IMG/VR virus record: IMGVR_UViG_3300017960_000024
Coordinates: 1-44,677 of that record
Source of the DNA: a virus
Strand: one strand, 5' to 3'
Length of the DNA stretch: 44,677 nucleotides
Shown: in pieces, positions 1 to 39,372 of the stretch
Layout of the letters: each line of letters begins with the position of its first letter
Numbering within the stretch: position 1 is the first letter of the stretch
The notes under the pieces: generated by a model
The model's input: only the letters and a program-made list of their open reading frames with translations
Told to the model about the DNA's origin: nothing
Databases searched by the model: none
Made by a program: the position numbers and the translations under genes

Positions 1-79
1 CCCTTTGCTTTTTGAAATTCTGACCCTTTGGCCGACTTTCTCGAAACTTCTTTACCTTGTCTAAAACGCTATCGCCCAT
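1..79 (-). CDS. Start of a gene that leaves the window on the left (partial)
   Basis: Twenty-six codons are visible, beginning MGDSVLDKVKKFRES and remaining open to the window edge. The ATG at 79 is preceded six bases upstream by AGGAG, a strong ribosome binding site, so translation here is likely. The visible residues are basic and polar, and no domain can be recognised. The gene follows the UvsY-like gene in the same direction with a 44-base gap, so it probably belongs to the same recombination/repair transcript. A recombinase or a single-strand-binding protein would fit the context, but nothing in these residues proves it. Confidence 0.7.
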   Translation of the reverse strand, partial: MGDSVLDKVKKFRESRPKGQNFKKQR

Positions 80-123
80 GACAATCTCCTTTCAAAATGA
101 ATAAACAAACTACACACGACAAA

Positions 124-735
124 CTACTTATCCCCCTTTCCATTTTTATTTTTCTTCATCTGTCTAACCCTATCAATAGTAGATTGATGTTTTCTTTTAG
201 CTGGAGTTCCATCTGTTTCTTCTTTCTTGCCGAACAAATATGGTTGTGTCTTGCGTTCATCCGAAACTGTTTGGCCATGTTCGCGAAGACTAAATGATTT
301 TTGCCGCCACGCTTCGTACCATGAATCCAACGTATCCACCTGTTCCTGCAAATAGGACAAATTGGTTTCCCACTCTTCAATTTTTCTCTCATTGTTAATG
401 ATTACGAATGCTTCAATATCAGATATAGTGGCCTTTTTTTGACCCGGTTGACTTGCGCCTTCCAAAGCTTTTCTTGCTTCTTGAAATTTCTTTTTCTGCC
501 AACGCTCGTAAGCGTGTTTCATTGAGTCATGTTGCCTCAATGCTTCCTTTTTGAGCACGCCGAAATACGCAATTGCCGCTGGTTGCATTGCAACGTGCTC
601 GTCAAAACTTCCGTCGCGGACGTCTAACAGGCGTGGAGATGGGTTTTCAAGAGAAATGCCAAGAATGGTGCTTTTCCCTGCTTCCTCGCATGCATTTCCT
701 ACCTTTTCTACAGTCTCGCTCAAATTTGTTTTCAT
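124..735 (-). CDS. UvsY-like recombination mediator (probable)
   Basis: 203 aa. The middle part (about residues 50-165) is a charged helical segment arranged like T4 UvsY: a W-and-K/R-rich helix, a DIEAFV stretch, then two long helices with NNERKIEEWE and VDTLDSWYEAWRQK. UvsY helps load the UvsX recombinase onto single-stranded DNA coated with Gp32. The C-terminal 40 residues are very basic (KKNKNGKGDK at the end), which suits DNA binding. It is longer than T4 UvsY (137 aa) because of extensions at both ends. The ATG at 735 has AAGGG seven bases upstream. A host-type promoter lies just upstream (791-820), inside the end of the preceding gene. The assignment rests on pattern and context, since similarity is weak at this level. 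Confidence 0.5.
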   Translation of the reverse strand: MKTNLSETVEKVGNACEEAGKSTILGISLENPSPRLLDVRDGSFDEHVAMQPAAIAYFGVLKKEALRQHDSMKHAYERWQKKKFQEARKALEGASQPGQKKATISDIEAFVIINNERKIEEWETNLSYLQEQVDTLDSWYEAWRQKSFSLREHGQTVSDERKTQPYLFGKKEETDGTPAKRKHQSTIDRVRQMKKNKNGKGDK

Positions 736-790
736 CGCTCAACCCTTATTACAAAGTACAAACGACCAACAACAAAACTCATGCTTTTCA

Positions 791-820
791 ATTATACACT
801 TTGGCTTTTAAGTTTTTCAA
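791..820 (-). promoter_or_regulatory. Predicted sigma70-type promoter for the UvsY-like gene
   Basis: On the minus strand a TTGAAA -35 box (815-820) and a perfect TATAAT -10 box (791-796) are separated by 18 bases. The site lies in the last codons of the preceding gene and about 55 bases upstream of the ATG at 735. It could give the UvsY-like gene and its downstream neighbour their own expression. Confidence 0.5.
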
Positions 821-1472
821 ACTTTTCTGATAATTTTTTAAGCTCTAACCGAAACTCTGGCAAATTGCATTCGGATTTTTGATAATGCTTCAATAGCGTA
901 ACCACTTCTTGCTTAAAGCCTTCGTCCTTGCTTGACCGTATGAGAACGCCTGCCCTTCTCAAAAGCAATTCTTCCTCTTCTATGGCTTCTTTTGCCTGTT
1001 TCCTATTTTTGAGCTTTGCCGCGTTTTTATACATGAACTCTTGCAAGACACTATTACTTACGGACAAAGGAATGTTTGGAGACAGTTGTTCTTTGTTGAT
1101 ATAAAACTCGTCAAACAACCACTTGAGATACTCTTCCATCGTTGCGCCATTTTGCTCCAGTTTTCCTATCAAACCTTCAATGATTTTTGCTTCTGTTGCT
1201 TTGAATCCTCCAAAATATTCCAAATCTGTTAATTGAAGATATTTTTGTTTGAAGATTGCAAAGAAACTGCGTACTTTTTTCTTGCGCTTTCCTTCTTCTT
1301 GTTCTTTATTTGCGCTTATTCTGTTCTCAAGTTTTTCAAGCAAAATATGTATAACATCTCTCAACTCTGGATCATCAACAACCCCATACAGCGTTGACAT
1401 TTCTACGAGCCACAAGTGAAATCGCTTGTACCTTGCTTCTCGTGTCGAAGAAATACCGTGCCGTGAAATCAT
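792..1472 (-). CDS. Unknown charged helical protein
   Basis: 226 aa; not recognised. It is rich in Lys and Glu, with several predicted long helices (for example residues 35-75 and 150-226) and a strongly basic patch GKRKKKVR near residue 60. No catalytic motif, membrane segment or cysteine cluster is visible. Its ATG overlaps the stop of the HEAT-repeat gene (ATGA, 1469-1472), so the two are probably translationally coupled and may act together. Its place between the split-helicase cluster and the UvsY-like gene suggests a role in DNA processing, but that is context only. Confidence 0.6.
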   Translation of the reverse strand: MISRHGISSTREARYKRFHLWLVEMSTLYGVVDDPELRDVIHILLEKLENRISANKEQEEGKRKKKVRSFFAIFKQKYLQLTDLEYFGGFKATEAKIIEGLIGKLEQNGATMEEYLKWLFDEFYINKEQLSPNIPLSVSNSVLQEFMYKNAAKLKNRKQAKEAIEEEELLLRRAGVLIRSSKDEGFKQEVVTLLKHYQKSECNLPEFRLELKKLSEKFEKLKSQSV

Positions 1473-1939
1473 TTATTTGCTTCGTCCATATACCGCTTGA
1501 TACGGCTTACCATCGAATCATCGTCATCAAAAAGCAACGTCATTAAACAATCTGAACGACCAGCACGTCTGAACATACCAATTGCCTGCTCTTTGATTGC
1601 CGTATCTTTCGACTCAAGCAAATAAACTAACTCTTCAAGTCCTTCGCGGCTTTTCATCAATTGTTTTAATATTTCTATCAGCGTGCTTTTGTTCTGCTCT
1701 ATCTTTGCGGCTTCAATTAATGGCTTTAGATTACTGCCAATTTCTCCAAGCACTTGCGCAGTACACCTGCGTACCCAATCATTGCTTGACTTCAAGTAAG
1801 GCTCGAACAATGTCTCATCAATATTGAGAGTCTTGTAACGGATTACATCACGAACGTGACGAGGAGATAGCTCTCCATTATCAGCCGCTTGTGTGAAAGC
1901 TTTGACTGCCCGCTCTGTAAACCAAAAATCTTTAGCCAT
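1469..1939 (-). CDS. HEAT-repeat protein
   Basis: 156 aa. At least two HEAT-type units can be seen: NDWVRRCTAQVLGEIG (about residues 53-68) and KDTAIKEQAIGMFRRAG (about 110-126). Each is the typical pattern in which an xxVRxxAAxxLGxxG-like helix follows a first helix. Such solenoids bind proteins or nucleic acid, and no enzyme site is present. The start overlaps the last codons of the helicase C-terminal half by 8 bases, and the stop overlaps the next start (ATGA). It is therefore tightly tied to the helicase/glycosylase cluster and could be a scaffold for it. The exact role is unknown. Confidence 0.55.
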   Translation of the reverse strand: MAKDFWFTERAVKAFTQAADNGELSPRHVRDVIRYKTLNIDETLFEPYLKSSNDWVRRCTAQVLGEIGSNLKPLIEAAKIEQNKSTLIEILKQLMKSREGLEELVYLLESKDTAIKEQAIGMFRRAGRSDCLMTLLFDDDDSMVSRIKRYMDEANK

Positions 1940-2930
1940 AAGACAAGTGTCTCAATTTTTCTATCAGTTCGTCAGTTCCAAACGTTTCAATTGCGTCCCA
2001 GTTTTCACGAATTCCTTCCGCGTTTTCCACTCCTAAATTATACAACTCAAACGCAACACTTTTTCCAATTCCTTCAAGTTTACACAAGTTTACAAGTTCA
2101 TCAGGGATTTTGTATGCTATCCGTACTCTCAAATCCTCAAAAAACTTCCGTTTGTCCCATCCCGAGCATTCGTTGATCTTTAAGAGCGCACCATAAATGC
2201 GCCCGAAATCCTCTTTTGCTTCTTTCTTTTGACTGGACAGTTTGCTTGTTGACGGCCCTCCTAAAAGACTCCACCAAACCAAGCCACCAGCAATCGTTTT
2301 TGAACAGTCTAAGCCAAGTGAAGACACTTGGTCTTTGTATTCTTCTATCAACTCCCAACAACCGTACAGATTGCCCCTTTTTCGCTCTCTCGCGACATTA
2401 GATAGCGCCCAAGCAATTGCTGGATCATTTTTTTGAAGTTCACTTTCAAAAAGCTCAAAAAAATTTTCCCGCCAATAGTAAATGTCTGCTGGATGAAAAT
2501 AAAAACGACTCGCGATATGCGCCAAATCTGTAGGAAAAAGAAAATCGCCCCGGCGCGTTATTGTCTCCCATTCTTCAGAAAGCAAGTCAACTGCTTGCTC
2601 CACTTCACAAGAAAACCCCGTAAACGCCGCGAAACTTTTTCCGTACCATCTTTTTGCCTCTGAAAGCGTCCTTATCTCCCCGCTGCTAATTTCAGAAACG
2701 AGATGAAAAGCAAGCGTTTCTGCATCGTACAGAACAGAATCAACTCGAAGATGATCTGCGTCCTGCATTTCATCTTTCAACGTTTGTACGTCATCTTCGT
2801 TAATAATGATATCAACATGACCTATTTGGTTTGGTTGCCGGGCACACCGGCCTGCCATCTGCAAAATTTCTGCCGTTGAAACGCGCTCTCGGCCACGCCA
2901 GATGTCTACAATAACAATTCTATCTGCCAT
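1932..2930 (-). CDS. Split Ski2/Hel308-like helicase, C-terminal half
   Basis: 332 aa. It starts in mid-domain: residues 3-10 form a core beta strand (DRIVIVDI), and QMAGRCAR at 24-31 is helicase motif VI with its arginine fingers. A winged-helix and helical region typical of Hel308/Ski2 enzymes follows. Near residues 288-310 there is a helix-hairpin-helix, KLEGIGKSVAFELYNLGV, matching the ratchet/HhH end of Hel308. Motifs I to V are absent; they lie in the gene at 3498-4442. Joined end to end, the two halves read GVNLG then ADRIVIVDI, the normal order of the family with almost nothing missing. The ATG at 2930 overlaps the end of the glycosylase gene by 11 bases and has no strong ribosome binding site, so coupled translation is likely. 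Both polypeptides should be needed for ATPase activity. Confidence 0.85.
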   Translation of the reverse strand: MADRIVIVDIWRGRERVSTAEILQMAGRCARQPNQIGHVDIIINEDDVQTLKDEMQDADHLRVDSVLYDAETLAFHLVSEISSGEIRTLSEAKRWYGKSFAAFTGFSCEVEQAVDLLSEEWETITRRGDFLFPTDLAHIASRFYFHPADIYYWRENFFELFESELQKNDPAIAWALSNVARERKRGNLYGCWELIEEYKDQVSSLGLDCSKTIAGGLVWWSLLGGPSTSKLSSQKKEAKEDFGRIYGALLKINECSGWDKRKFFEDLRVRIAYKIPDELVNLCKLEGIGKSVAFELYNLGVENAEGIRENWDAIETFGTDELIEKLRHLSYG

Positions 2931-3501
2931 TGAGATATTCTTTGAGGACTTCTAAGTCTTGATAAAATTTCACTTTCAATTCAGGCTTGTTCATATTTCT
3001 TGGGCTTGGATGCAATAGGGGCAAAACGTTCTTTTTGTATCGTAATGAAATTATCTTTTGACCATGAAGTTTCATTATTCCTTTTCGCCCAGTCACCTGC
3101 TCCAACGATGGCGCTCCCAAGGTCACGATGATTTTTGGGTTTACGGCTTCGATTTCAGCGTCTAAAAATTCGCAACAATTTTCAATTTCGACATTGCTTG
3201 GCTTGCGGTTTTTTGCCGTATAGCAGTGGCACGTATTCGTAATGTAAAAATGCGTTCTATCAATTCCTAAAACTTCTTCAATTGCCTTATCAAAAAATTC
3301 ACCCGACGGCCCGACAAAAGGTTTTCCACGTTCTACTTCAACGTAACCGGGATTCTGCCCTATTACCATGATTTGAGCTTTCATGCTCATATTAGACCAC
3401 ACGTTGCTCAAATGACCATCAACGTCTTGCCCGCCAATGGCACACTTCTTACAAGCATAGCACTTCTGTTGCAATTCTGTGAGACGTTCCGCCTTGTTCA
3501 T
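2920..3501 (-). CDS. Fe-S uracil-DNA glycosylase (family 4-like)
   Basis: 193 aa, the usual length for family 4. The enzyme removes uracil from DNA. Likely cluster ligands are C17 and C20 (CKKC) with C93 and C109; the 16-residue spacing of the last pair matches family 4. Motif A is GQNPG (48-52) followed by GKPFVGPSGEFFD, and motif B is HPSP (164-167). Family 4 normally has GEAPG, so motif A here is unusual and nearer the G-x-NPG of Mug-type enzymes. The gene sits exactly between the two halves of the Hel308-like helicase. Its ATG overlaps the stop of the upstream half (ATGA), and its end overlaps the start of the downstream half. It therefore appears co-translated with both, which suggests the products work together in repair. 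Confidence 0.88.
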   Translation of the reverse strand: MNKAERLTELQQKCYACKKCAIGGQDVDGHLSNVWSNMSMKAQIMVIGQNPGYVEVERGKPFVGPSGEFFDKAIEEVLGIDRTHFYITNTCHCYTAKNRKPSNVEIENCCEFLDAEIEAVNPKIIVTLGAPSLEQVTGRKGIMKLHGQKIISLRYKKNVLPLLHPSPRNMNKPELKVKFYQDLEVLKEYLNGR

Positions 3502-4442
3502 CCTAAATTCACTCCACTTGACAATGTTGATGTACTCACAAGGATGTCCAACCCCGAACGGACATTGTCGAATGCTTCTTCAATTGCTTTTCGCCTTGAG
3601 TGCGATAAATTTGCATTATGAAATTCGCAAATGAAACCCTTTTTTCTAACTGCCTTCGTAATTTCTTTCCCAAGCTTTTTACTATGAACAAAAACGACTA
3701 TTTTTTCACCACGTGGAGTTGTTGCAAGCTGCTTTGCTAACTCAATTTTCTTTTCCCAAGTCTTTTCATCATCGAACGTGTAAAAGCGTGTTACGATTTT
3801 TGATGGACGCCACGTGCTTACGATTTTCAACGTCGTCTTTTTGTTCAAACTTTTCAACCACGACGATAATTCTCCTGCATTTTCCATTGTCGCGGACAGC
3901 AAAATAATTCTTGCTTTTGGGTTCAGCTTTGTAAAACGCACCAATGAAACTTCTACGTTGTCGCCACGCCCTTTTGTCCCCAATAAATGCGCTTCGTCAA
4001 AAACTATACAAGTAATTTCTTTTAACCATTTATGTTGGCTTTGATTCCTCGTCTTCGAGTCAAATGATTCTGTAGTCAAGATAATCAAACGGTTTGAATC
4101 GAAATCCTCTTTACACGCAAAACGATCACCTATGCTTAAAACGATTCCATGTTTGGAAAACTGCGCGTTCTCTTTCCATGCATTGTATTGCTGCATGCTC
4201 AAGGAACGATACGGCGACACATAGACACATTTTGAATTTGGGGATGTTTTGAAATGAAAACCGAAAGCTGCTTCGGCCAGCGCAGTTTTGCCAGTAGCGG
4301 TAGGGAATGAAATCACGAGGTTTGTTTCGGTTGGGATGTGCGGAATGGCAGCGGCTTGCGCTTTGTTGAAGTTGTTAAAAGGAAACTCGAAATACTCATA
4401 TTCCCTTGTTTGCATGAGCCGTCCCAAACTCTTTGGAATCAT
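3498..4442 (-). CDS. Split Ski2/Hel308-like helicase, N-terminal half
   Basis: 314 aa of a superfamily 2 DNA helicase. Visible in order: the Q-motif region FNKAQ (25-29), Walker A TATGKT (48-53), motif Ia YVSPYRSL (74-81), TTESFDS (123-129), DEAH (149-152), SAT (183-185), motif IV IVVFVHSKK (248-256), an HNANLSHSRR segment (275-284) and motif V LVSTSTLSSGVNL (301-313). The frame stops one residue later, before motif VI. The stop shares bases with the glycosylase ATG (ATGA). The missing part is encoded at 1932-2930. The first ATG (4442) overlaps the previous gene by 47 bases; an ATG at 4415 would give a shorter form. Neither has a clear ribosome binding site. Confidence 0.88.
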   Translation of the reverse strand: MIPKSLGRLMQTREYEYFEFPFNNFNKAQAAAIPHIPTETNLVISFPTATGKTALAEAAFGFHFKTSPNSKCVYVSPYRSLSMQQYNAWKENAQFSKHGIVLSIGDRFACKEDFDSNRLIILTTESFDSKTRNQSQHKWLKEITCIVFDEAHLLGTKGRGDNVEVSLVRFTKLNPKARIILLSATMENAGELSSWLKSLNKKTTLKIVSTWRPSKIVTRFYTFDDEKTWEKKIELAKQLATTPRGEKIVVFVHSKKLGKEITKAVRKKGFICEFHNANLSHSRRKAIEEAFDNVRSGLDILVSTSTLSSGVNLG

Positions 4443-4797
4443 CCATCAATTGTTTGACGAAACTATCTATTTCTTCAACGCTGTCTTTCTTCGTTTCATA
4501 AACCTTGTTGTTGTTTTCGTAACCAATCCTTATTTTCATATTACCTGACTTCGCGATCCAAATTTGAATGGGGATTGGGCCAAACTCAAACCAGTAACAG
4601 TTGCAGCTTTCTCCTTGTTTTGACCTTGCGAATTGAAATTTCTCTTTCAATTCTTCAATCAAAATCTCTTCAAAACTCTGCTCTTCCATAACGCCAACCG
4701 CCGTCGCTGTCGCGCTTCTGCAAAGCAATTTTGCGAGACAGTTTTTGCAGTTTGCCGAATCGCTTCTAAAATGGCGATAGCATGCACCCATTTTCAT
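4396..4797 (-). CDS. Small cysteine-cluster protein, unknown function
   Basis: 133 aa from the ATG at 4797, which has GAGGAC five bases upstream. A longer frame back to 4911 would overlap the sigma gene and lacks such a site. Near the start is a C-x10-C-x2-C-x5-C cluster (C6, C17, C20, C26), a compact zinc or iron-sulfur type pattern. Next come an acidic helix (EEQSFEEILIEELKEKF) and a mostly beta segment with FEFGPIPIQIWIAKSG. No catalytic signature is recognised. The gene lies between the sigma factor and the split helicase in the same transcript. It could be a regulator or a repair accessory protein. Confidence 0.55.
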   Translation of the reverse strand: MKMGACYRHFRSDSANCKNCLAKLLCRSATATAVGVMEEQSFEEILIEELKEKFQFARSKQGESCNCYWFEFGPIPIQIWIAKSGNMKIRIGYENNNKVYETKKDSVEEIDSFVKQLMDDSKEFGTAHANKGI

Positions 4798-4856
4798 ATT
4801 GTCCTCAAGATGCTTCATCTCCTTGCCAAATTTTTTACTCGCCACGGCTTGCCCCT

Positions 4857-5537
4857 CTATAACAGATCGTCCAAGTGCTTTTTCAAGAACGGATACGCAA
4901 CGTGATTGCAAAAGCGCCGAACATCGTTCATTTTCGTTTTCAACTTTTTCGCCACGCGGACAAAGTTCGGCTTCTTTCCTGAAAAGTTTTCAGAAAACGG
5001 ATCGCCAAAAAGAGCGAGCAGCATTTTCTGCTTTTCCGGGTAAGCATCAAAAAGCAACTGCATGGCGTTTTTCATCTGCCACGACTTGTCTGCGTTTGAA
5101 AGACTTTCGTCGCAAGCGCGAGTCGTGATAAACTCGCTTTCCTCTGAAGACATGTTGGTCGTAATTTTCTGATTCGTTCTATAACGGGTCACCCGCTTGC
5201 GGTGATTGAACACATGATTCCGAACCACACGCCACATCCACGTGATAAACTTGACGCCTTTTTCCTTTTTGAAGAAAGGCAGGTTCTTCCACAACGCCAA
5301 TTCTGCGTCGTTCGCAAGCTCTTCCACCGGCACGCGCGTATCGCATTCGCCGTAGCGAAAAACGATGGTGTAAATGGCGCGGACAATGGAGTCGTGGAAA
5401 AGCTGTTTCTCAAACTCGTTTGCTTCGCCTTCCGCAATGAGCACGGCAAGCCCTTCACGAGTATATGGGCTATCACAAATCTCGTCCTCTTTCAAAACCT
5501 GTTTGAAGTTACGTTCAGAAGTGATTACTTCAGACAT
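4857..5537 (-). CDS. Phage RNA polymerase sigma factor (sigma70 family, ECF-sized)
   Basis: 226 aa. Region 2 is clear at about residues 50-117: ELANDAELALWKNLPFF, then KFITWMWRVVRNHVFNHRKR, matching the core-binding and -10-recognition helices of sigma70. A second helical DNA-binding part near 188-215 (FVRVAKKLKTKMNDVRRFC) looks like a diverged region 4. Such factors redirect host RNA polymerase to phage middle or late promoters. The ATG at 5537 has AAAGGG seven bases upstream. A near-consensus host promoter lies about 85 bases upstream, so the gene is probably switched on early by host polymerase. The promoters it recognises are not proven; AT-rich motifs at 32676 and 42127 are candidates. 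Confidence 0.75.
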   Translation of the reverse strand: MSEVITSERNFKQVLKEDEICDSPYTREGLAVLIAEGEANEFEKQLFHDSIVRAIYTIVFRYGECDTRVPVEELANDAELALWKNLPFFKKEKGVKFITWMWRVVRNHVFNHRKRVTRYRTNQKITTNMSSEESEFITTRACDESLSNADKSWQMKNAMQLLFDAYPEKQKMLLALFGDPFSENFSGKKPNFVRVAKKLKTKMNDVRRFCNHVAYPFLKKHLDDLL

Positions 5538-5621
5538 GGGAGCGCCCTTTGTAAAAAGAACCGATTACCGGCCACACAACGCAAAACACAAAACATAGAA
5601 CACACAATTTTAAGCTCTTTA

Positions 5622-5649
5622 ATTATAGCGTGTTTTCTCTCGAAGTCAA
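5622..5649 (-). promoter_or_regulatory. Predicted sigma70-type promoter for the sigma factor gene
   Basis: On the minus strand TTGACT (5644-5649) and a perfect TATAAT (5622-5627) are 16 bases apart. This is the best host-type promoter in the window. It lies in the 108-base gap between the primase and sigma genes, giving an 80-90 base leader. An inverted repeat (TTTTCTCT/AGAGAAAA, plus strand) overlaps the -35 box and spacer and could bind a regulator. Confidence 0.6.
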
Positions 5650-6713
5650 GAGAAAAATCCAAACTTTCCAAATAATTTTTTGACCTCTTCGGGCGGTAGC
5701 GTTTTGGGGTCGTAACCACGCCGAACCGTCCCTTTATGCGTTTCAAAAAACTCACTCATTTGCTTGAAAACCTTGCGCTGAATTTCGTAACCCGCATCAT
5801 CACCGTCGAATAGCAAAATTAAGCTTTTGGGGTTGGCTTCTGCCAAAAGCATAATTTGCTTCTGGCTGACGCTTGCGCCTAAAATTGCAACCGCCGGATA
5901 TCCCAATTGCCGTAATTTCATGACTTCACGTGCGCCTTCGGTCAGGGCGACTATTTCTTGACTCTGAATTTCATCCAATCCAAAAAGATACTCGCTACGT
6001 TTGAACCCTTTTGAGTAGAGAACCTTCTTATATTGGTTCTCTTCAAGCGTCGGATGGCGTCGAAGCCATTCTTTCTTTCCGAGAACATCAACGGCCTCAA
6101 AACCGATTAGCGTCTTCTTCGAGAAGAACGGAATAACAACCCGGTTGGCGTAATACCCAGAACGTAATTGCACGCAACGATAGCGGTCAACAGTTTCTTT
6201 CTCGATCAACGTGGGCTTTTTCCCCGGAGGTCGCATAAAATACTCATATCCACTTTGCACCATCGTCTCCGTTCTCAACCACCGTTTGACGCTCTCCACC
6301 GCTTGGTTGGTAGCTTTCCCTTTGCTTGCCGCCTTCTTTCTCCGCAACTTTTTGAATTGCTTTTTCAAGCTGGCAATTTCCATGTTAGAAATCCCTTTGC
6401 TATCTCCCAGCATCCAATCGACGGCTTCTTTGGGAGAGCACTTTCTCAACCTTGAAACGATCCAAACCAGATTACTTCCTCTTCCCTCCGTAAAACACAT
6501 CGTCTGGCCCGTTTCGACGTTAATCGTCCATTTCGGATGGCTCGGATTCCTTTTAACGTGGATATAATGATCAGGACACCACCCGTAGATTTGATTTCCC
6601 ATGCGATTAGGAAGCAACCGAACGTTGAGCCGCTCCAAAACAAGCTGAACGTCTATCTTGGGCATGAGCCAAGAAATATCACCAAACGAAAGCTTGTCGC
6701 GAATGCTTTCCAA
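5646..6713 (-). CDS. DnaG-type DNA primase
   Basis: 355 aa. It makes RNA primers for DNA replication. The N-terminal zinc-binding part has C46, H49 and C73 in CPDH and CFTE; the fourth usual cysteine is E76, so the site is incomplete. The TOPRIM domain is well formed: ALTEG with E259, and LLFDGDDAG with the DGDD acidic cluster at 302-305. It is shorter than bacterial DnaG (about 600 aa) because it lacks the C-terminal helicase-binding domain, as in many phage primases. The likely start is TTG at 6713 with AAAGG eight bases upstream; an in-frame TAA lies just before it. The first ATG (codon 17) has no ribosome binding site. Confidence 0.85.
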   Translation of the reverse strand: MESIRDKLSFGDISWLMPKIDVQLVLERLNVRLLPNRMGNQIYGWCPDHYIHVKRNPSHPKWTINVETGQTMCFTEGRGSNLVWIVSRLRKCSPKEAVDWMLGDSKGISNMEIASLKKQFKKLRRKKAASKGKATNQAVESVKRWLRTETMVQSGYEYFMRPPGKKPTLIEKETVDRYRCVQLRSGYYANRVVIPFFSKKTLIGFEAVDVLGKKEWLRRHPTLEENQYKKVLYSKGFKRSEYLFGLDEIQSQEIVALTEGAREVMKLRQLGYPAVAILGASVSQKQIMLLAEANPKSLILLFDGDDAGYEIQRKVFKQMSEFFETHKGTVRRGYDPKTLPPEEVKKLFGKFGFFS

Positions 6714-6811
6714 ATCACCGAACCTTTATTAACCTTAACCGCACCGGCAGCGTTTGCCGTGAACTTTGTTGGAACTTTCTGAGAAAAATACGCACGTTTC
6801 ACGCAACGCAT

Positions 6812-7834
6812 TCACGCGTCGCTGCCTTTGAAGAATTGGCGCTTGCTGATTGGATCAAATGCCGTGAATTCATCGTCCGAATTCAAGTCGTTGTCAATAA
6901 ACTCGATCGCATTGACAAGCTTGATATCCATGTTCACGGCTTCTGATAAAAGAATCGCCTCTTTCGTCATTGGAAGAATCGCTTGCCCTTCTTGAGCTTT
7001 TATCGCATGAATCACACGTTGTGCGGTTTCGCTTTTGAAGCCTTCCTTGCTTTGTACCAACTCAGCCGCTTTTATCACGTGCCGTAAGCTTAATTCCACA
7101 ATACCATAAAGCTTTCCAAAAACGGTCATTGCTGGTTGACAACCTTCGATTCTGAAAGCGTCCAACGCACCAACGCGATGAAGCAATGCAGCAGTTACAG
7201 CAAGACAACTTTCTTTCGAAGAAAATCCGTACTGTTTGGAAAACCCCGCAACCGCGTAAGCCGTTTTTATCGTATGCTTCAACAAGCCACCATCCATTCC
7301 GTAAAACGGCTTATCGCTTGCTGGTGCTTTTTTGAAGTGAGCTTCAACCGCGTCCGAAAAAACAGAGTCCAAAATCAACCTACAAGTTTGATCGTCAATT
7401 TCGTCGCAAATTTTATCAACACGATCACGGTACAAAGCAAACGCTTCTGAATCTTGCTCTTTGGATTCGCTTTGAATTAGATAATTCTCATTCATCTGCG
7501 CTTCAGAAGGAACGTCTGCTTCTTTAATTTCTTGCGCAATGATTTGAAGCTTTCCCCTATACTCTTCAACTGTTGCGATAATTTCAATCCAATTATTGCG
7601 TTTCATCCCATTTGTCGGACCCCAATGCCGCACAAACGACTCTCCAGAACGGTCACGCAACGTCCAATCGCTGTAGATGTTGCCGTTCCGGGCAACACGT
7701 TCAAACGCGTCTTGAACGAAATAAACTCCTGAAAAGCTGTCTCCGACGCTAACGTGGCGTATCAAGACGTGACTGTTTGACTTGTTAGAAGAATTGCTAT
7801 TTTGCCTCATTGCTTTTTTAAGCGCTGAATTCAT
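6812..7834 (-). CDS. YhaM-like OB-fold/HD protein with a damaged HD site
   Basis: 340 aa from the ATG at 7834, which has a strong AAGGAGG seven bases upstream; an ATG 13 codons earlier lacks one. Residues 22-105 form an OB-fold nucleic-acid-binding domain (HVSVGDSFSGVYFVQ, then WTLRDRSG). Residues 180-320 match the HD part of YhaM-type 3'-5' exoribonucleases, starting GGLLKHT. The metal-binding residues are largely lost: the HD pair is H219-R220 (LLHRVG), the later LxGH segment reads LYGIVE, and SHHG is replaced by AQEG. It is therefore probably not an active nuclease and may only bind nucleic acid. It lies between the initiator and the primase, pointing to a replication or RNA-binding accessory role. 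Confidence 0.7.
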   Translation of the reverse strand: MNSALKKAMRQNSNSSNKSNSHVLIRHVSVGDSFSGVYFVQDAFERVARNGNIYSDWTLRDRSGESFVRHWGPTNGMKRNNWIEIIATVEEYRGKLQIIAQEIKEADVPSEAQMNENYLIQSESKEQDSEAFALYRDRVDKICDEIDDQTCRLILDSVFSDAVEAHFKKAPASDKPFYGMDGGLLKHTIKTAYAVAGFSKQYGFSSKESCLAVTAALLHRVGALDAFRIEGCQPAMTVFGKLYGIVELSLRHVIKAAELVQSKEGFKSETAQRVIHAIKAQEGQAILPMTKEAILLSEAVNMDIKLVNAIEFIDNDLNSDDEFTAFDPISKRQFFKGSDA

Positions 7835-7886
7835 CCCAAACCCTCCTTGCAAAAATTGCGGCACACAAAACACAAGACCTTTTATA

Positions 7887-7916
7887 ATTGTACAACTCGC
7901 TTGAAAGGTTTTACAA
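7887..7916 (-). promoter_or_regulatory. Predicted promoter upstream of the YhaM-like gene
   Basis: On the minus strand TTGTAA (7911-7916) and TACAAT (7887-7892) are 18 bases apart, with a second TATAAA-like stretch directly downstream. The site lies in the gap after the initiator gene and about 50 bases before the ATG at 7834. The -10 box follows GAGTTG, similar to the CAGTTG before the -10 at 12309. Confidence 0.45.
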
Positions 7917-7920
7917 AAAC

Positions 7921-8727
7921 TTAATCAAAAAAATCATTAAACCAAGCCTCAGCCAACGTCGTGGCGAAATAACGACTGTATTTTTTTCCTGTCTCTTCTT
8001 CAATCTGTACGAGTTTGAAGTGAATCCAACTGAAATATTCGTCGGCGCAATCCTGCTCGTAAAGGATTTGACAATGACGACGGATTTTTTCCTTTTTGCT
8101 AAACCTTGGATGCCATGTTTTTTGAACAGACCAATCTTGTTGCGAATAAATCTCAAAAACTGCTTCGCACATGGATTGTTCTGAAACTGACGGTGTTTGA
8201 GAAGCAGCAGAAAAAGAGGAGGATTTTTGTTGTTTTGAAGGTTTTCCATTCTTTTCTTTTACTCTTCCTCTTCTTCTCTTTTCTTCTTTCTTTTCTTTCT
8301 TATCTACTTCTTTATTCTCTTTATCTATAATTAAGGGAGGGTCAGGTCGTTGAACGACCCCGGTTGTTGAACGACTCAGGTTGTTGAACGACCCTACCTT
8401 GACTTCTCGTGCGATTTTTGTTTGATTGCGGCGTTTTTCAAGTAAGTCGTTGATATGTCCATCGCATTGCTGTTTAATACTTTGCGCATCCCCGAAACAA
8501 ATCACAGGAGCTTTTCCGGGAATCCTGTCGACAACGAGGACTTTCAAAATTTCAAGATTTTTGATCAATGTTGTTGCTGTTTTTCGCCTCACTCCAGCTT
8601 TGTAAGCAATATCCGGCACAGGAAGACTGCAACAACCATTTTCCATAAGCTTGCTTATGGCGTAAATGATTTGCAATTCTTTTCCTTTGAAGTGCGGAAA
8701 AGCAATGCTGATGTATTCAGGAATCAT
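7921..8727 (-). CDS. Replication initiator / helicase loader
   Basis: 268 aa. Residues 1-85 look like a winged helix-turn-helix (YAISKLMENG, then VPDIAYKAGVRRKTATTLIKNLEIL), as in phage O and DnaD-like initiators. The middle (about 105-185) is low-complexity and basic: KKEKKEEKRRRGRVKEK. The C-terminal 85 residues are helical and Trp-rich, as expected for a part that contacts the replicative helicase. The gene carries three direct repeats (8345-8394) and a purine-rich tract, the arrangement of an origin inside an initiator gene as in lambda O. Its ATG overlaps the stop of the DnaB-type helicase (ATGA), a natural pairing of helicase and loader. No ATPase motif is present, so it is not a DnaC-type loader. 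Confidence 0.72.
   Translation of the reverse strand: MIPEYISIAFPHFKGKELQIIYAISKLMENGCCSLPVPDIAYKAGVRRKTATTLIKNLEILKVLVVDRIPGKAPVICFGDAQSIKQQCDGHINDLLEKRRNQTKIAREVKVGSFNNLSRSTTGVVQRPDPPLIIDKENKEVDKKEKKEEKRRRGRVKEKNGKPSKQQKSSSFSAASQTPSVSEQSMCEAVFEIYSQQDWSVQKTWHPRFSKKEKIRRHCQILYEQDCADEYFSWIHFKLVQIEEETGKKYSRYFATTLAEAWFNDFFD
8251..8394. other. Probable replication origin: three 17-bp iterons and an AT-rich purine tract
   Basis: Three direct repeats begin at 8345, 8362 and 8379, exactly 17 bases apart, with plus-strand consensus GGTYGTTGAACGACYC. The first contains a perfect inverted repeat, GGTCGT-TGA-ACGACC; a weaker fourth match lies at 8446-8460. Immediately beside them, 8251-8334 is almost pure pyrimidine on the plus strand (purine on the coding strand) and AT-rich, ending TATCTATAATTAA. 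Iterons plus an asymmetric AT-rich unwinding tract inside the initiator gene are the layout of the lambda origin. Origin function is an inference. Confidence 0.65.
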
Positions 8728-10445
8728 TCTTCTTTTTTCTTACGTTTGTCACGGATGGATTTAACAAGGTTAAAGAGACCTTTTGATGTCGTCTCGCTCC
8801 CGTTTGAGGGTGTTTTGTTTAACTCTTCAGGCTTTTCTGAAGGTTTCTCTTCAGGTGGTGGTTGATCAACCGTTTTGGGCCGTTTTTGAACTTCTTCCGA
8901 TTGCTTTTCTTCATCGGGTTTTTTGACGGATTTTTCTTCATCCGTTATTTTCAAACTGCCTTCTTCGTACGCTTTCTCAAGTTCTTGCTTAACTTTGTCG
9001 GCACTGATAGGCCCAGTTTTCCCAGTATCATCGTCGCCTTTCCAATCCTCTTGTACTACGCGACCTGTTTTTACGCAATGCCGAATTTTGAAGACAAAAT
9101 TCCTGTTGTCTCGGTTCTTACAAACTTCCGCAAGCAAAAGCCTATCACAAGCGTCAATATCCTCTCTATCGCCACCGCTTCCATCTTTGTTCGCAATCTG
9201 CGTGTCATCAAAACGCTTTTGCATGATTCCAATAAACGTGTTACTTGCGTGAACTCGACGCTTTGAACCATACACGTCTTGCCGCCCGAATCGGTGCCCT
9301 TTTTCTTCTTTTTTAGCAACACTTGTTGCAGCTTGAGTAGCTGTAACCAAAGGAAGATTGAATTCAACGCACATCCCCTTGCAATCTTTTGCCACTTTTG
9401 CTTGTTCATCATTTTCACTAAACGCTTTTTGCATTGGCGACATGTGATCCATGTAGTCAAGAATAATCACGTGAATTTTGAAACCAATCTGCTCCAACTC
9501 TGCGTAAGCCCTATGAATTTCCGCAACGGTTGAATGTTGTCCAATATCTTTAATAAACAACCGTCCGTAGCAATCACGTTCCAATTCTTTCATGATCGCT
9601 TTCCATTGCTTCAATCCAGCGGGGTCAATGGTTGCATTTTTGAAACGGAAATAGTCAATATTGGAAAACAATGCATGATACTTCAAACGGACCTGATCAC
9701 GGTGCTCTTCGTTTGTTATGTGTAAGACGTTTTTACCGGGATACCGATCATACGGGTTTTTCGCTGTCTGATTTCCAATGACAATATTGTACCCAATCTG
9801 TTTCAAAATCGTTGACTTACCGACGCCTGATAACGCTGCGATCAAAGTCATTTCCGCAGGAAATAAACCACCCGTGAGTTTATCAAACGTTTGAAAACCA
9901 GTTTTGATTCCGCCATATTTAGCGGGGTTTGCTTTTTGATCATGAATCCGTTGATCAATATCCTTAACTTCAGTCACTTGAACCATAGGTTGGTCCGTTT
10001 GACTTTCAATATTTAGTTGAATCGACTCTTTTTTCAAAAGATGGACGGCACCTTTGATGTCGCCTTTTTGAATCCTTCCAAGTGTTTCTTCGCAAATCAA
10101 ACTGACGCTACCGATGCATTCCTTTTCTTCAAGCTTTTCAATCAATGCTTTGACTTCTTCTTGTACGTCGCATTGTTTGATCAGCGTCCATTCAGTAACA
10201 AGCTTTTCCCGCATTTCTTTTTTGGTCGTACCGGGATAAAGTTTATCAATTTCAGCTTCGAACAAGTCTTGCGTAAGAATTGTTCCAGAGCCTCGGAACA
10301 TTTCCAAGGCCATTTTGAAGATGATTTTCCTGTAACCGAAAAACCAAATCTCTTTTACATTCAGGATAAAAGGCCGCGTGACCATAATATCCGTAAGCAA
10401 CAATTTCAGAAGATGACGCTCAATAGACATGGTTTCAAAAGACAT
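8724..10445 (-). CDS. Replicative DNA helicase, DnaB type
   Basis: 573 aa. The N-terminal 150 residues are helical, as in DnaB primase-binding domains. The RecA-like core starts near GGIKTGFQTFDKLTGG (178-193), with Walker A SGVGKST (206-212), Walker B IILDY (327-331), and TQAAT as the motif H3 region. It unwinds DNA at the fork and works with the primase (5646-6713) and the loader encoded next. The last 80 residues are an unusual low-complexity tail rich in Glu, Pro and Lys (EEKPSEKPEE), ending in a basic helix; such a tail is not part of the family core. The ATG at 10445 has GAGG six bases upstream. The stop overlaps the initiator start. Confidence 0.88.
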   Translation of the reverse strand: MSFETMSIERHLLKLLLTDIMVTRPFILNVKEIWFFGYRKIIFKMALEMFRGSGTILTQDLFEAEIDKLYPGTTKKEMREKLVTEWTLIKQCDVQEEVKALIEKLEEKECIGSVSLICEETLGRIQKGDIKGAVHLLKKESIQLNIESQTDQPMVQVTEVKDIDQRIHDQKANPAKYGGIKTGFQTFDKLTGGLFPAEMTLIAALSGVGKSTILKQIGYNIVIGNQTAKNPYDRYPGKNVLHITNEEHRDQVRLKYHALFSNIDYFRFKNATIDPAGLKQWKAIMKELERDCYGRLFIKDIGQHSTVAEIHRAYAELEQIGFKIHVIILDYMDHMSPMQKAFSENDEQAKVAKDCKGMCVEFNLPLVTATQAATSVAKKEEKGHRFGRQDVYGSKRRVHASNTFIGIMQKRFDDTQIANKDGSGGDREDIDACDRLLLAEVCKNRDNRNFVFKIRHCVKTGRVVQEDWKGDDDTGKTGPISADKVKQELEKAYEEGSLKITDEEKSVKKPDEEKQSEEVQKRPKTVDQPPPEEKPSEKPEELNKTPSNGSETTSKGLFNLVKSIRDKRKKKEE

Positions 10446-35181: not shown

Positions 35182-35552
35182 ATTTCTCTCGCAATCTTAA
35201 CAAGTTCTTTAGCTATCTGCTTAGTCGGTTTCAACTCTGCTGGTAAAACTTTTTCAAGCGACTTGATTTCTCCAGAAGCATCCCAACCATTTTCAACATC
35301 GGTTTCTGTTCCTACCTGTTGCAATATTTCATTAACCCAATCAGCGATCAACTCTTTTACGTTAGCGTTCCCAACACGACCAAACGTCCGTTGATCTGAA
35401 TTCTCTTCCCCGTCCAACTTCCAATTACAAACGCCACTGATATAGCCTGCTTTTTTGTAAAGAGTAAATTCAATGGAAAATTCTTTTCCCTTTGAGGTCT
35501 TTACCTTTACGCTTTTGATAGCAAGAACGGTTTTTTTCAGCTTTGGTTTCAT
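35169..35552 (-). CDS. Small protein with a C-terminal LVKIAK helix tag
   Basis: 127 aa. The first 100 residues are mainly beta (VKVKTSKGKEFSIEFTLYKK, then GVCNWKLDGEEN) with a helix NVKELIADWVNEILQQVG. The last 18 residues (TKQIAKELVKIAREICQM) are the same amphipathic helix seen at the N terminus of four neighbouring proteins, here moved to the C terminus. No catalytic motif is recognised. The ATG shares bases with the S66 peptidase stop (ATGA), so the two are translated together. Confidence 0.6.
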   Translation of the reverse strand: MKPKLKKTVLAIKSVKVKTSKGKEFSIEFTLYKKAGYISGVCNWKLDGEENSDQRTFGRVGNANVKELIADWVNEILQQVGTETDVENGWDASGEIKSLEKVLPAELKPTKQIAKELVKIAREICQM

Positions 35553-36481
35553 GAAAAGGGATTTCCAAACATAACCATACAGCTCTCAGCGTCCAAAGAA
35601 GTTTCCACCCCAAGCGGAACGTTCGCAACCGTCTCGCCATGACTGAAGTTCATTCCGAAAACGCAAGGCAATTTATCTTCAAAGAATCGAACAACTACGT
35701 CCTCAACAGAAACATCTGAATCCTGTCGTTCTGGCCGTTCGACAAATTCTCCAAAAACAACGCCGCCAACTTTTTCAAAAACCCCAGCCAATTCAAGCTG
35801 ATTCAAGCAAGCTGAAACTTCGTAACCACCTGCCTGAGTATCTTCCAAAAATAAAATTGCGCCTTCCAATTCTGGCAAAAATGGCGTTCCTATCAACGCC
35901 GTGAACAAAGTCAAGTTTCCGCCAATTGAAGTTCCCCGAACAATTCCACCGCAGACGCAACGCGGTAATGAACAATCTGAAAAAGGATCATTGTGCCATT
36001 CAGAATCAAGCTTGAGTAGCATAAGTGCGTGTTTAAGATTTTGCTCATCAAGGGGCTTTTTCTCGCGAATACGAATATTTGGGCCGCAAAAGTTTACCAG
36101 CCCGGAACAACGCAAAATTGCATTGTTGATAACTGTAATATCAGACATCCCCATGAATGGTTTACGCGTTTTGCGAATCAAGTCGTAAGGGATATAAGGT
36201 AACAGTTCTATCGCAGAATAACCGCCTTCACTCACACATACGGCAGAAATAGTATTGTCGCTAAAGGCCCAATCTATTTCATGAATACGTTGATCAACAG
36301 GAGCAGAATTCCAAGCGTCAGAACGTAAATTTCTCAAATTGGGACCAAGAACAGGCTCCAAGCCACATTCTACAAAGACAGGCAACGCAGACTGAATTGC
36401 CTTAGTCGACGTAATCGGAGAAGAAGGCGTAATGATAGCAACTTTATCGCCATCAACCAGCGCTGTTGGTTTTAGATACAT
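35549..36481 (-). CDS. Peptidase S66 (LD-carboxypeptidase-like)
   Basis: 310 aa from the ATG at 36481 (AGGAAAAG upstream), the normal length of the family. S66 enzymes cut an L-D peptide bond in peptidoglycan tetrapeptides or hydrolyse related compounds such as microcin C. The Ser-Glu-His triad is clear: S113 in GMSDITVINN, E213 in LFLEDTQAGGYE, H281 in NFSHGET. The N-terminal VDGDKVAIITPSSPI and EGGYSAIELLPYI are also typical. No signal peptide is present. It could trim host cell wall for recycling or lysis, blunt a toxin, or act during virion assembly. Its place among connector genes is unusual. Confidence 0.87.
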   Translation of the reverse strand: MYLKPTALVDGDKVAIITPSSPITSTKAIQSALPVFVECGLEPVLGPNLRNLRSDAWNSAPVDQRIHEIDWAFSDNTISAVCVSEGGYSAIELLPYIPYDLIRKTRKPFMGMSDITVINNAILRCSGLVNFCGPNIRIREKKPLDEQNLKHALMLLKLDSEWHNDPFSDCSLPRCVCGGIVRGTSIGGNLTLFTALIGTPFLPELEGAILFLEDTQAGGYEVSACLNQLELAGVFEKVGGVVFGEFVERPERQDSDVSVEDVVVRFFEDKLPCVFGMNFSHGETVANVPLGVETSLDAESCMVMFGNPFS

Positions 36482-36788
36482 CCGGCGTCTTTTCCTGTTT
36501 GTAACGTATGCCAAGCATGTTATCAACCATGTTGTCAAGATTTGTAATCTCAATATCTTCAACAGCGTCTCGCAAACGACGTGTGATCACACCATTGCCA
36601 TCTTTGCCTGAGTGATGGATAACAACGACATCATAATTTGGCTTATCAGAAAGTTCTCCGCCAATAACCATTGCCTGCTTGCCCTGCATCGCTGTCCCAA
36701 CTTCTTTTCGAACAAGTTCAAGCAAGCGTGCGGAATCAATAATTTGACTGATATTTGCCAATTCTTTTGAGATGCTGTTATCGTCCAT
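36453..36788 (-). CDS. Small structural or assembly protein, unknown
   Basis: 111 aa from the ATG at 36788, which has AAAGGGA upstream. A longer frame back to 37079 runs antiregister through the next gene and is rejected. The N-terminal helix (ISKELANISQIIDSARLLEL) is followed by a beta segment with YDVVVIHHSGKDGNG and a C-terminal helix. It is not recognised. The product overlaps the S66 gene start by 29 bases. Confidence 0.5.
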   Translation of the reverse strand: MDDNSISKELANISQIIDSARLLELVRKEVGTAMQGKQAMVIGGELSDKPNYDVVVIHHSGKDGNGVITRRLRDAVEDIEITNLDNMVDNMLGIRYKQEKTPDVSKTNSAG

Positions 36789-38697: not shown

Positions 38698-39348
38698 CTA
38701 ACCAGCACGCCTGTTTCCTTTGGAAGCATTATCTGACAACCACATTGGTTGTAAATTTTTCAGCTTCCAACATTGTTTGAATCCTTCATCTTTCTCCGAT
38801 TCAAACTCAAACCACGTGCGAGGCGTTTTATGATCAATTTGCCAACCCATATCACCGCCGTAATTATCCCAAGTCATCCCACCATGAAATTGCGATTCTA
38901 AGTGAGCTACCAATTGATCGAGGCTAAAGTCTACCAAATCTTCCCAATGACGACGATTCTTTCTATTTGTTTTATCCAGCTTATCTCGTAATGAAAACCA
39001 AATTTGAAAACTGATGCGTCTTGAGATTCTGTTGCGGTGATTACTCATATAATTCTGATGCCACCGTCTCATCTTCTTGCGAGTCTCAGGACGCTTCATA
39101 TAGTCTTGATTGTACTCCTTTTGATAAGCTTTTCTACGTTCTCGATATTCAGGTTCATTTTGTTGACGTTTATGGTGAAGCGCAAGTGCCTTTTGCTTTT
39201 CACTTTCTATATTTCGCTTGTATGACTCTTTTCTGTTTTTCCTTGCACATTCTTTACACCAACCATGAATTCCATCTTTGTAGCCTTTGTTCTTCCCAAA
39301 GCAGTCAATGGATTTCAAAACTTTGCAGTGAGAACAGATTTTAGTCAT
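38698..39348 (-). CDS. HNH endonuclease with zinc fingers, probable homing type
   Basis: 216 aa from the ATG at 39348 (AGAGGG upstream); an upstream in-frame start lacks such a site. Residues 5-8 (CSHC) and two cysteines near 31-34 (CKEC) form an N-terminal zinc-binding unit. A long basic helical stretch follows. The nuclease core is at the end: MGWQIDHKTPRTWF with the D-H pair, then KNLQPMWLSDNASKGNR, the N and second-helix part of HNH. Such free-standing enzymes spread by cutting related phages next to their own site. It lies between the tagged proteins and accessory genes, where it may have moved local DNA. Confidence 0.8.
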   Translation of the reverse strand: MTKICSHCKVLKSIDCFGKNKGYKDGIHGWCKECARKNRKESYKRNIESEKQKALALHHKRQQNEPEYRERRKAYQKEYNQDYMKRPETRKKMRRWHQNYMSNHRNRISRRISFQIWFSLRDKLDKTNRKNRRHWEDLVDFSLDQLVAHLESQFHGGMTWDNYGGDMGWQIDHKTPRTWFEFESEKDEGFKQCWKLKNLQPMWLSDNASKGNRRAG

Positions 39349-39372
39349 AACCCTCTTTATGATAAGCAATTA

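Follow-up and report, generated by a model that had tools for sequence, protein, structure and literature searches.

Why would a virus encode a DNA helicase in two separate genes, with a gene for a DNA repair enzyme lying exactly in the break? This arrangement is found in the window, by which we mean the whole 44,677-nucleotide stretch analyzed here (positions 1 to 44,677 of IMG/VR record IMGVR_UViG_3300017960_000024). The genes concerned, their overlaps, and their immediate neighbors are as follows:

3498..4442, minus strand: helicase N-half, 314 aa (DEAD, 8.6e-30, and the start of Helicase_C)
2920..3501, minus strand: uracil-DNA glycosylase (UDG)-superfamily gene, 193 aa (PF03167, 1.4e-33)
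1932..2930, minus strand: helicase C-half, 332 aa (ORF and family profile match to Hel308 structures)
3498..3501, minus strand: ATGA overlap of the N-half stop and the UDG start (GGATGA junction identical in the window and in related loci L030/L038 and L060)
2920..2930, minus strand: 11-base overlap of the UDG end and the C-half start
4396..4911, minus strand: small Cys-containing gene upstream of the N-half, start uncertain, overlapping the N-half start
1469..1939, minus strand: HEAT-repeat-like gene directly after the C-half (PF13646, 5.8e-07)

We consider it very probable that this locus represents an ancient, inherited two-subunit Hel308-like helicase that was split once at motif V, with the UDG gene in the gap.

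The N-half spans RecA domain 1 and the initial portion of RecA domain 2. It carries motifs I (PTATGKT), II (DEAH), III (SATM), and V (STSTLSSGVNL) and terminates in TSTLSSGVNLG followed directly by the stop codon; its translation may start at Met1 or at Met10, the latter position being the start in relatives. The C-half opens with MADRIVIVDI and contains the remainder of RecA domain 2, including motif VI (QMAGRCAR), followed by a winged helix, a ratchet domain, and a helix-hairpin-helix (HhH) end. After rechecking of ORFs and motifs, the first-pass annotation, which had the upstream gene end at GVNLG and the downstream gene start at ADRIVIVDI with motif VI, proved correct to the codon. Pfam matches of the C-half are weak; its family profile retrieved Hel308 structures 2zj2, 9b15, and 2p6r at ~1e-20, and in 2zj2 both the 4–161 and the 249–311 regions were matched. 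Taken together, the two halves contain all Hel308 motifs checked and all domains that follow RecA domain 2, in the same order as in Hel308/Hjm and in intact viral homologues (LR756511 and IMG/VR contigs), which are also the best fold and profile matches. In contrast to the single polypeptide of Hel308, two ORFs and thus two chains are encoded in all seven complete split loci described below. With the curated Hel308 model NF040935 (cut-off 1200 bits), the N-half scored 97.8 bits and an intact viral homologue only 208; because these scores fall below the cut-off, the proteins are here named Hel308-like rather than Hel308 proper.

The cut is located at the codon after motif V (GVNL/P-A-R), in the loop following this motif and inside RecA domain 2. 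When the halves were joined (minus the C-half Met) and aligned with the 675-aa single ORF of huge phage LR756511 (GLNLPARRVV), there was no gap at the cut, which bears out the earlier claim that the break lies inside RecA domain 2 and that almost nothing was lost. Other intact viral Hel308-like proteins also align gap-free at this point, with only ~30% identity between split proteins and intact viral homologues. Different from Hel308/Hjm and the intact viral homologues, the split proteins carry replacements of two NLPAR residues at their new ends: all 12 intact proteins compared have the Pro and the Arg, whereas in 7/7 split pairs Gly stands in place of Pro where the N-half ends and Asp in place of Arg where the C-half begins. 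Among the intact helicases, the viral protein encoded at L017:3386-5971 has an N-terminal extension of ~200 aa, and the 948-aa protein of Pseudoalteromonas plasmid NZ_CP072685 (L070:4389-7235), which is among the closest cellular relatives found for the split N-halves, has an insert following motif VI.

The same break with a UDG inside was identified in eight distinct loci, including the window, from different metagenomes. Seven of them are complete, namely the window, L025 (3300017987_005486), L030/L038 (3300035698_022419), L034, L035, L036 (= L039), and L060; in the incomplete L037, the contig ends ~400 bases past the UDG, before any C-half. Both intact and further split versions of the helicase, a search for which had been proposed in the first-pass annotation, were therefore found, and the split is common to eight loci rather than a one-off. 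Split relatives were retrieved by a UDG-based and a C-half-based scan. Six of the seven were first found via the UDG query, and L030, found by the C-half query, is the only case fully independent of the UDG, so that any split helicase lacking a UDG may have escaped detection. When viral contigs were scanned narrowly with single proteins, only a twin IMG/VR contig (3300017991_004700) was returned; it is 100% identical to window positions 1–9442, locus included. All UDG relatives with at least 42% identity lie behind a helicase N-half, and no matching helicase halves were found within up to 5 kb on each side of relatives at 40% identity or below. No annotated phage or plasmid record with the split was found; the nearest records, LR756511, Microcystis phage Mvi-JY20, and a Pseudoalteromonas plasmid helicase, carry the intact form.

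The new ends are similar across these loci. GVN[LIM] marks the end of the N-half, usually followed by a single extra Gly (GVNLG, GVNIG, GVNMGN, or GVNMGG; GINI in L037); in L025 the N-half continues for 12 residues beyond the Gly. The C-half always starts with M[AS]D and shares 32–50% identity with that of the window. The content of the break is more variable: the N-half and UDG are separated by 72 bases in L035 and by three small ORFs in L037, and one and two small ORFs lie between the UDG and the C-half in L034 and L036, respectively. None of the five small inserted ORFs tested had a Pfam match. The extra ORFs in L034, L036, and L037 indicate that tight adjacency of N-half, UDG, and C-half is not needed. 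Flanking genes recur as well. In those related loci that were checked (by position and inspection), a small Cys-pair gene likewise precedes the N-half, with no profile match for the one in the window (4396..4911), and a HEAT-repeat-like gene directly 3′ of the C-half is also present in the related complete loci, the equivalents in L034 and L030 matching more weakly. The ATGA and 11-base overlaps, which had been taken to tie the UDG to both helicase halves, are indeed present in the window but are ordinary for this operon: neighboring genes overlap as well (1932/1939, 1469/1472, and 4396/4442), and the junction overlaps are therefore not special evidence of coupling. A gene for a sigma-70 region 2 protein (4857-5537, minus strand) adjoins the helicase operon and points to a bacterial host.

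Could the locus simply be a decaying helicase gene or an assembly error? We regard this as extremely improbable. The same N-half break with a UDG occurs in contigs from nine metagenomes, which excludes an assembly error, and no premature stops were found in either half. Because relaxed constraint on the C-half would raise the ratio of C-half to N-half divergence (dC/dN), the nearly equal medians of split pairs (1.47) and intact pairs (1.45) show that C-half constraint is not reduced; a decayed downstream half, named together with assembly error in the first-pass annotation as a finding that would overturn its reading, is likewise excluded. Between the window and L025, pN/pS is 0.27 for the N-half, 0.22 for the UDG, and 0.46 for the C-half, compared with 0.34–0.37 for two nearby genes, at saturated dS; the constraint test accordingly relies on amino-acid divergence. 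No intact Hel308-like copy was found in the split contigs, which are possibly incomplete and yielded only weak matches to other helicases. From these comparisons we infer that the two halves are jointly functional.

In structure predictions, each half folds like the matching part of Hel308. The N-half was modeled by AlphaFold with a pLDDT of 79, confidence dropping past the motif V strand (last residues <50), and its best PDB fold match is Hel308 9b15 (E 1.7e-15). The C-half model has a pLDDT of 84, with lower confidence in the opening strand (residues 4–8) and a helix (19–27), and its best Foldseek matches are Hel308 9b15 and 2p6r. Low confidence at the C-half opening is as might be expected for parts needing a partner, and judging from the models, the RecA domain 2 sheet would have to be completed by the other chain.

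Alternatively, the split might be only apparent, with RNA splicing, protein trans-splicing, or frameshifting rejoining the halves before they work. The N-half and C-half do lie in the same frame, 570 bases apart, and the relative L011 contains an intein. Against rejoining, however, none of the eight loci has an Rfam intron family match, neither half in the window has an intein-like extension, with the N-half stopping right at the break, and in-frame readthrough runs into many stops; the gap in L035 and the two extra ORFs in L036 are further points against it. We therefore judge rejoining to be highly improbable. Three narrower candidates were also rejected. A −1 frameshift joining the N-half to the UDG is not general, since in L035 the 72 bases follow the N-half stop. 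A split intein does not fit either, because there are no intein halves at the break, the N-half ending with GVN[LIM]G or no more than 12 residues from it and the C-half starting with M[AS]D. As for a defence-system helicase, PADLOC gave generic DEAD-box matches for the N-half and none for the C-half or UDG.

The seven complete split helicases form a single clade with support of 100/100 (two trees), and one split event is thus sufficient to explain all of them. A branch with support of 97/95 sets the UDGs of the split loci apart from 15 free UDGs, two long-branch UDGs leaving the root unsure. Pairwise distances are correlated between the N-half and C-half (0.97), the N-half and UDG (0.84), and the C-half and UDG (0.87). 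The split is most likely an ancient, inherited state in this viral lineage, and several stages of the locus are on view: the intact gene, the split gene with a UDG, and the split gene with a nuclease or other inserts in addition to the UDG.

The nuclease is found in L025, the closest relative of the window, where an ORF of 284–290 aa lies exactly at the N-half/UDG junction. It encodes Cys-rich fingers and a DUF559/Vsr-like nuclease domain (DUF559, 9e-11; vsr, 3e-07, below cut-off), and it resembles proteins of mycobacteriophages and Dickeya phages, one of these proteins being annotated as an endonuclease; by these matches it is a candidate homing endonuclease. The first-pass annotation had described the insert as a repair enzyme and not a nuclease, which holds for the window, where this ORF is absent, but not for L025, whose break carries both. 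Mobile elements also occur in intact members of the family: the viral Hel308-like helicase at L011:2789-5869 contains an in-frame LAGLIDADG intein of ~345 aa in motif I (TSSGK/A...VTHN/T), and a free-standing LAGLIDADG endonuclease ORF (L018:3055-3954) overlaps the start of another intact viral Hel308-like helicase gene. This helicase family thus attracts such elements. Fractured genes with split inteins, described by Dassa et al. in 2009 (as cited in PMC10448857), are reportedly in two parts with a Vsr-like nuclease ORF between them, as in L025; here, different from those, the halves have no intein parts.

Comparable splits are known in phages. The nrdA gene of Aeh1 (mobE), T4 topoisomerase gene 60 (mobA), and 43A/43B of Aeromonas phage 25 are likewise essential-type phage enzymes whose coding sequence is interrupted at a critical region, leaving two ORFs separated by another gene or a spacer, and both gp43A/B of phage 25 and the split NrdA of Aeh1 work as reassembled enzymes (PMC2988022). 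The Aeh1 comparison drawn in the first-pass annotation, of a cut phage enzyme with a gene inserted, is apt (PMC2988022). Outside phages, insertional fission is represented by split cox2 (PMC5374615). Compared with the three phage systems, the constant insert here is a DNA repair enzyme, the enzyme cut is an SF2 helicase in RecA domain 2, and the state is common to eight divergent loci rather than to one or two phages.

These parallels raise the possibility that a homing endonuclease fractured the gene at motif V, that the nuclease carried the UDG or was later joined by it and then lost from most lineages, and that the UDG is a wedge without a working tie to the helicase. The position of the L025 nuclease, the attraction of such elements to the family, and the split genes with mobE and mobA (PMC2988022) would all suit this scenario. 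However, the nuclease is present in only one of eight loci, and because it is confined to one nested member of the tree, it most simply arrived late, a single gain being more parsimonious than repeated losses. Moreover, the 12-residue run-on of the L025 N-half before the nuclease fits a late insertion, and the UDG has been retained in 8/8 loci. We consider such a fracture rather unlikely.

The UDG itself matches a family-4 UDG in PDB (4zbx, 3.2e-25) and has conserved cysteines at C14, C17, C20, C93, and C109, of which the four Fe-S cysteines (C17-x2-C20 and C93-x15-C109) are invariant in eight UDGs. Its motif A is GQNPG and its motif B HPSPRN. The former is present in 25/25 UDGs of the viral group, for which the scan had partly selected for GQNP, whereas motif A is GE(A/G)PG in family 4, GQDPY in family 1, and GINPG in family 2 (PMC10359453); set against these motifs, the active site mixes features. 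Designation as an Fe-S UDG thus stands for the cysteine ligands, which are kept, but not for a family 4 motif A. The UDG falls below the cut-offs of NCBIfam family-4 models, just so in the case of TIGR00758 (118.3 bits; cut-off 125.3 bits). In the wider viral group of Fe-S type UDGs (window 2920-3501 and L032-L068), most members combine GQNPG with a motif B of the form HPSPxN, a mix that matches no named UDG family. Uracil removal by this protein is likely.

Does the UDG work with the helicase? It is fixed in the break in 8/8 loci while other inserts vary, which suggests a working tie, a point weakened by sampling through the UDG query. Escherichia coli Lhr is a precedent: this SF2 repair helicase has helicase and UDG activity in one chain, and full UDG activity requires the helicase domains (PMC10953399). 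In Lhr the glycosylase part is AlkZ-like and belongs to the same chain (PMC10953399), whereas the gene between the halves here specifies a UDG-superfamily protein of its own, of the Fe-S type. It is plausible that the UDG and helicase combine translocation and uracil removal in phage replication or repair. As the first-pass annotation had considered possible, N-half, UDG, and C-half might even form a stable complex that translocates and removes uracil, the split persisting because the UDG helps to join the halves. The constancy of the UDG, the correlation of its divergence with that of both halves (r 0.84–0.87), and the Lhr precedent speak for this; conserved gene order by itself does not show contact, however, and sampling was biased to loci with a UDG, so we hold this reading as a tentative one. 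Somewhat more doubtful still is a heterotrimeric phage repair enzyme in which the UDG, with its unusual GQNPG motif on an Fe-S family-4-like scaffold, would hold together or steer an obligatorily two-chain Hel308-like helicase, the whole scanning DNA and removing uracil while translocating.

For the two-subunit helicase that we favor, the following course may be proposed. One ancestral event would have cut the gene of a Hel308-like SF2 DNA helicase after motif V, with the UDG gene in the gap, and N-half, UDG, and C-half would have been passed on since as a single operon segment. The halves would be translated separately, each retaining its own part of the machinery. The first strand and helices of the C-half would complete the RecA domain 2 beta-sheet in trans, and its motif VI arginines would contribute to the ATP site built from N-half motifs I, II, III, and V. 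That the protein is an active helicase and reassembles in trans is inferred here by analogy with known families.

To our knowledge, every SF2 helicase described so far has its RecA domain 2 in a single polypeptide, and a long-lived split of this domain offers a natural test of motor-domain completion by a second chain. With a UDG constantly present in the break, a helicase–glycosylase partnership, so far known as the single chain of Lhr, likewise becomes directly testable. A literature search, with subscription journals mostly outside its coverage, returned no split Hel308-like helicase and no UDG inside a helicase gene. Split phage enzymes themselves are known, but these searches turned up no case in which an SF2 helicase is split around a constantly retained repair enzyme across many divergent phages.

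Elsewhere in the window, a Cys-rich ORF without a Pfam match (38698-39369, minus strand) resembles an HNH endonuclease (QIDHKTPRTWF), and a gene for an LD-carboxypeptidase/peptidase S66 of the MccF-like family (35549-36562, minus strand) is located amid phage structural genes.
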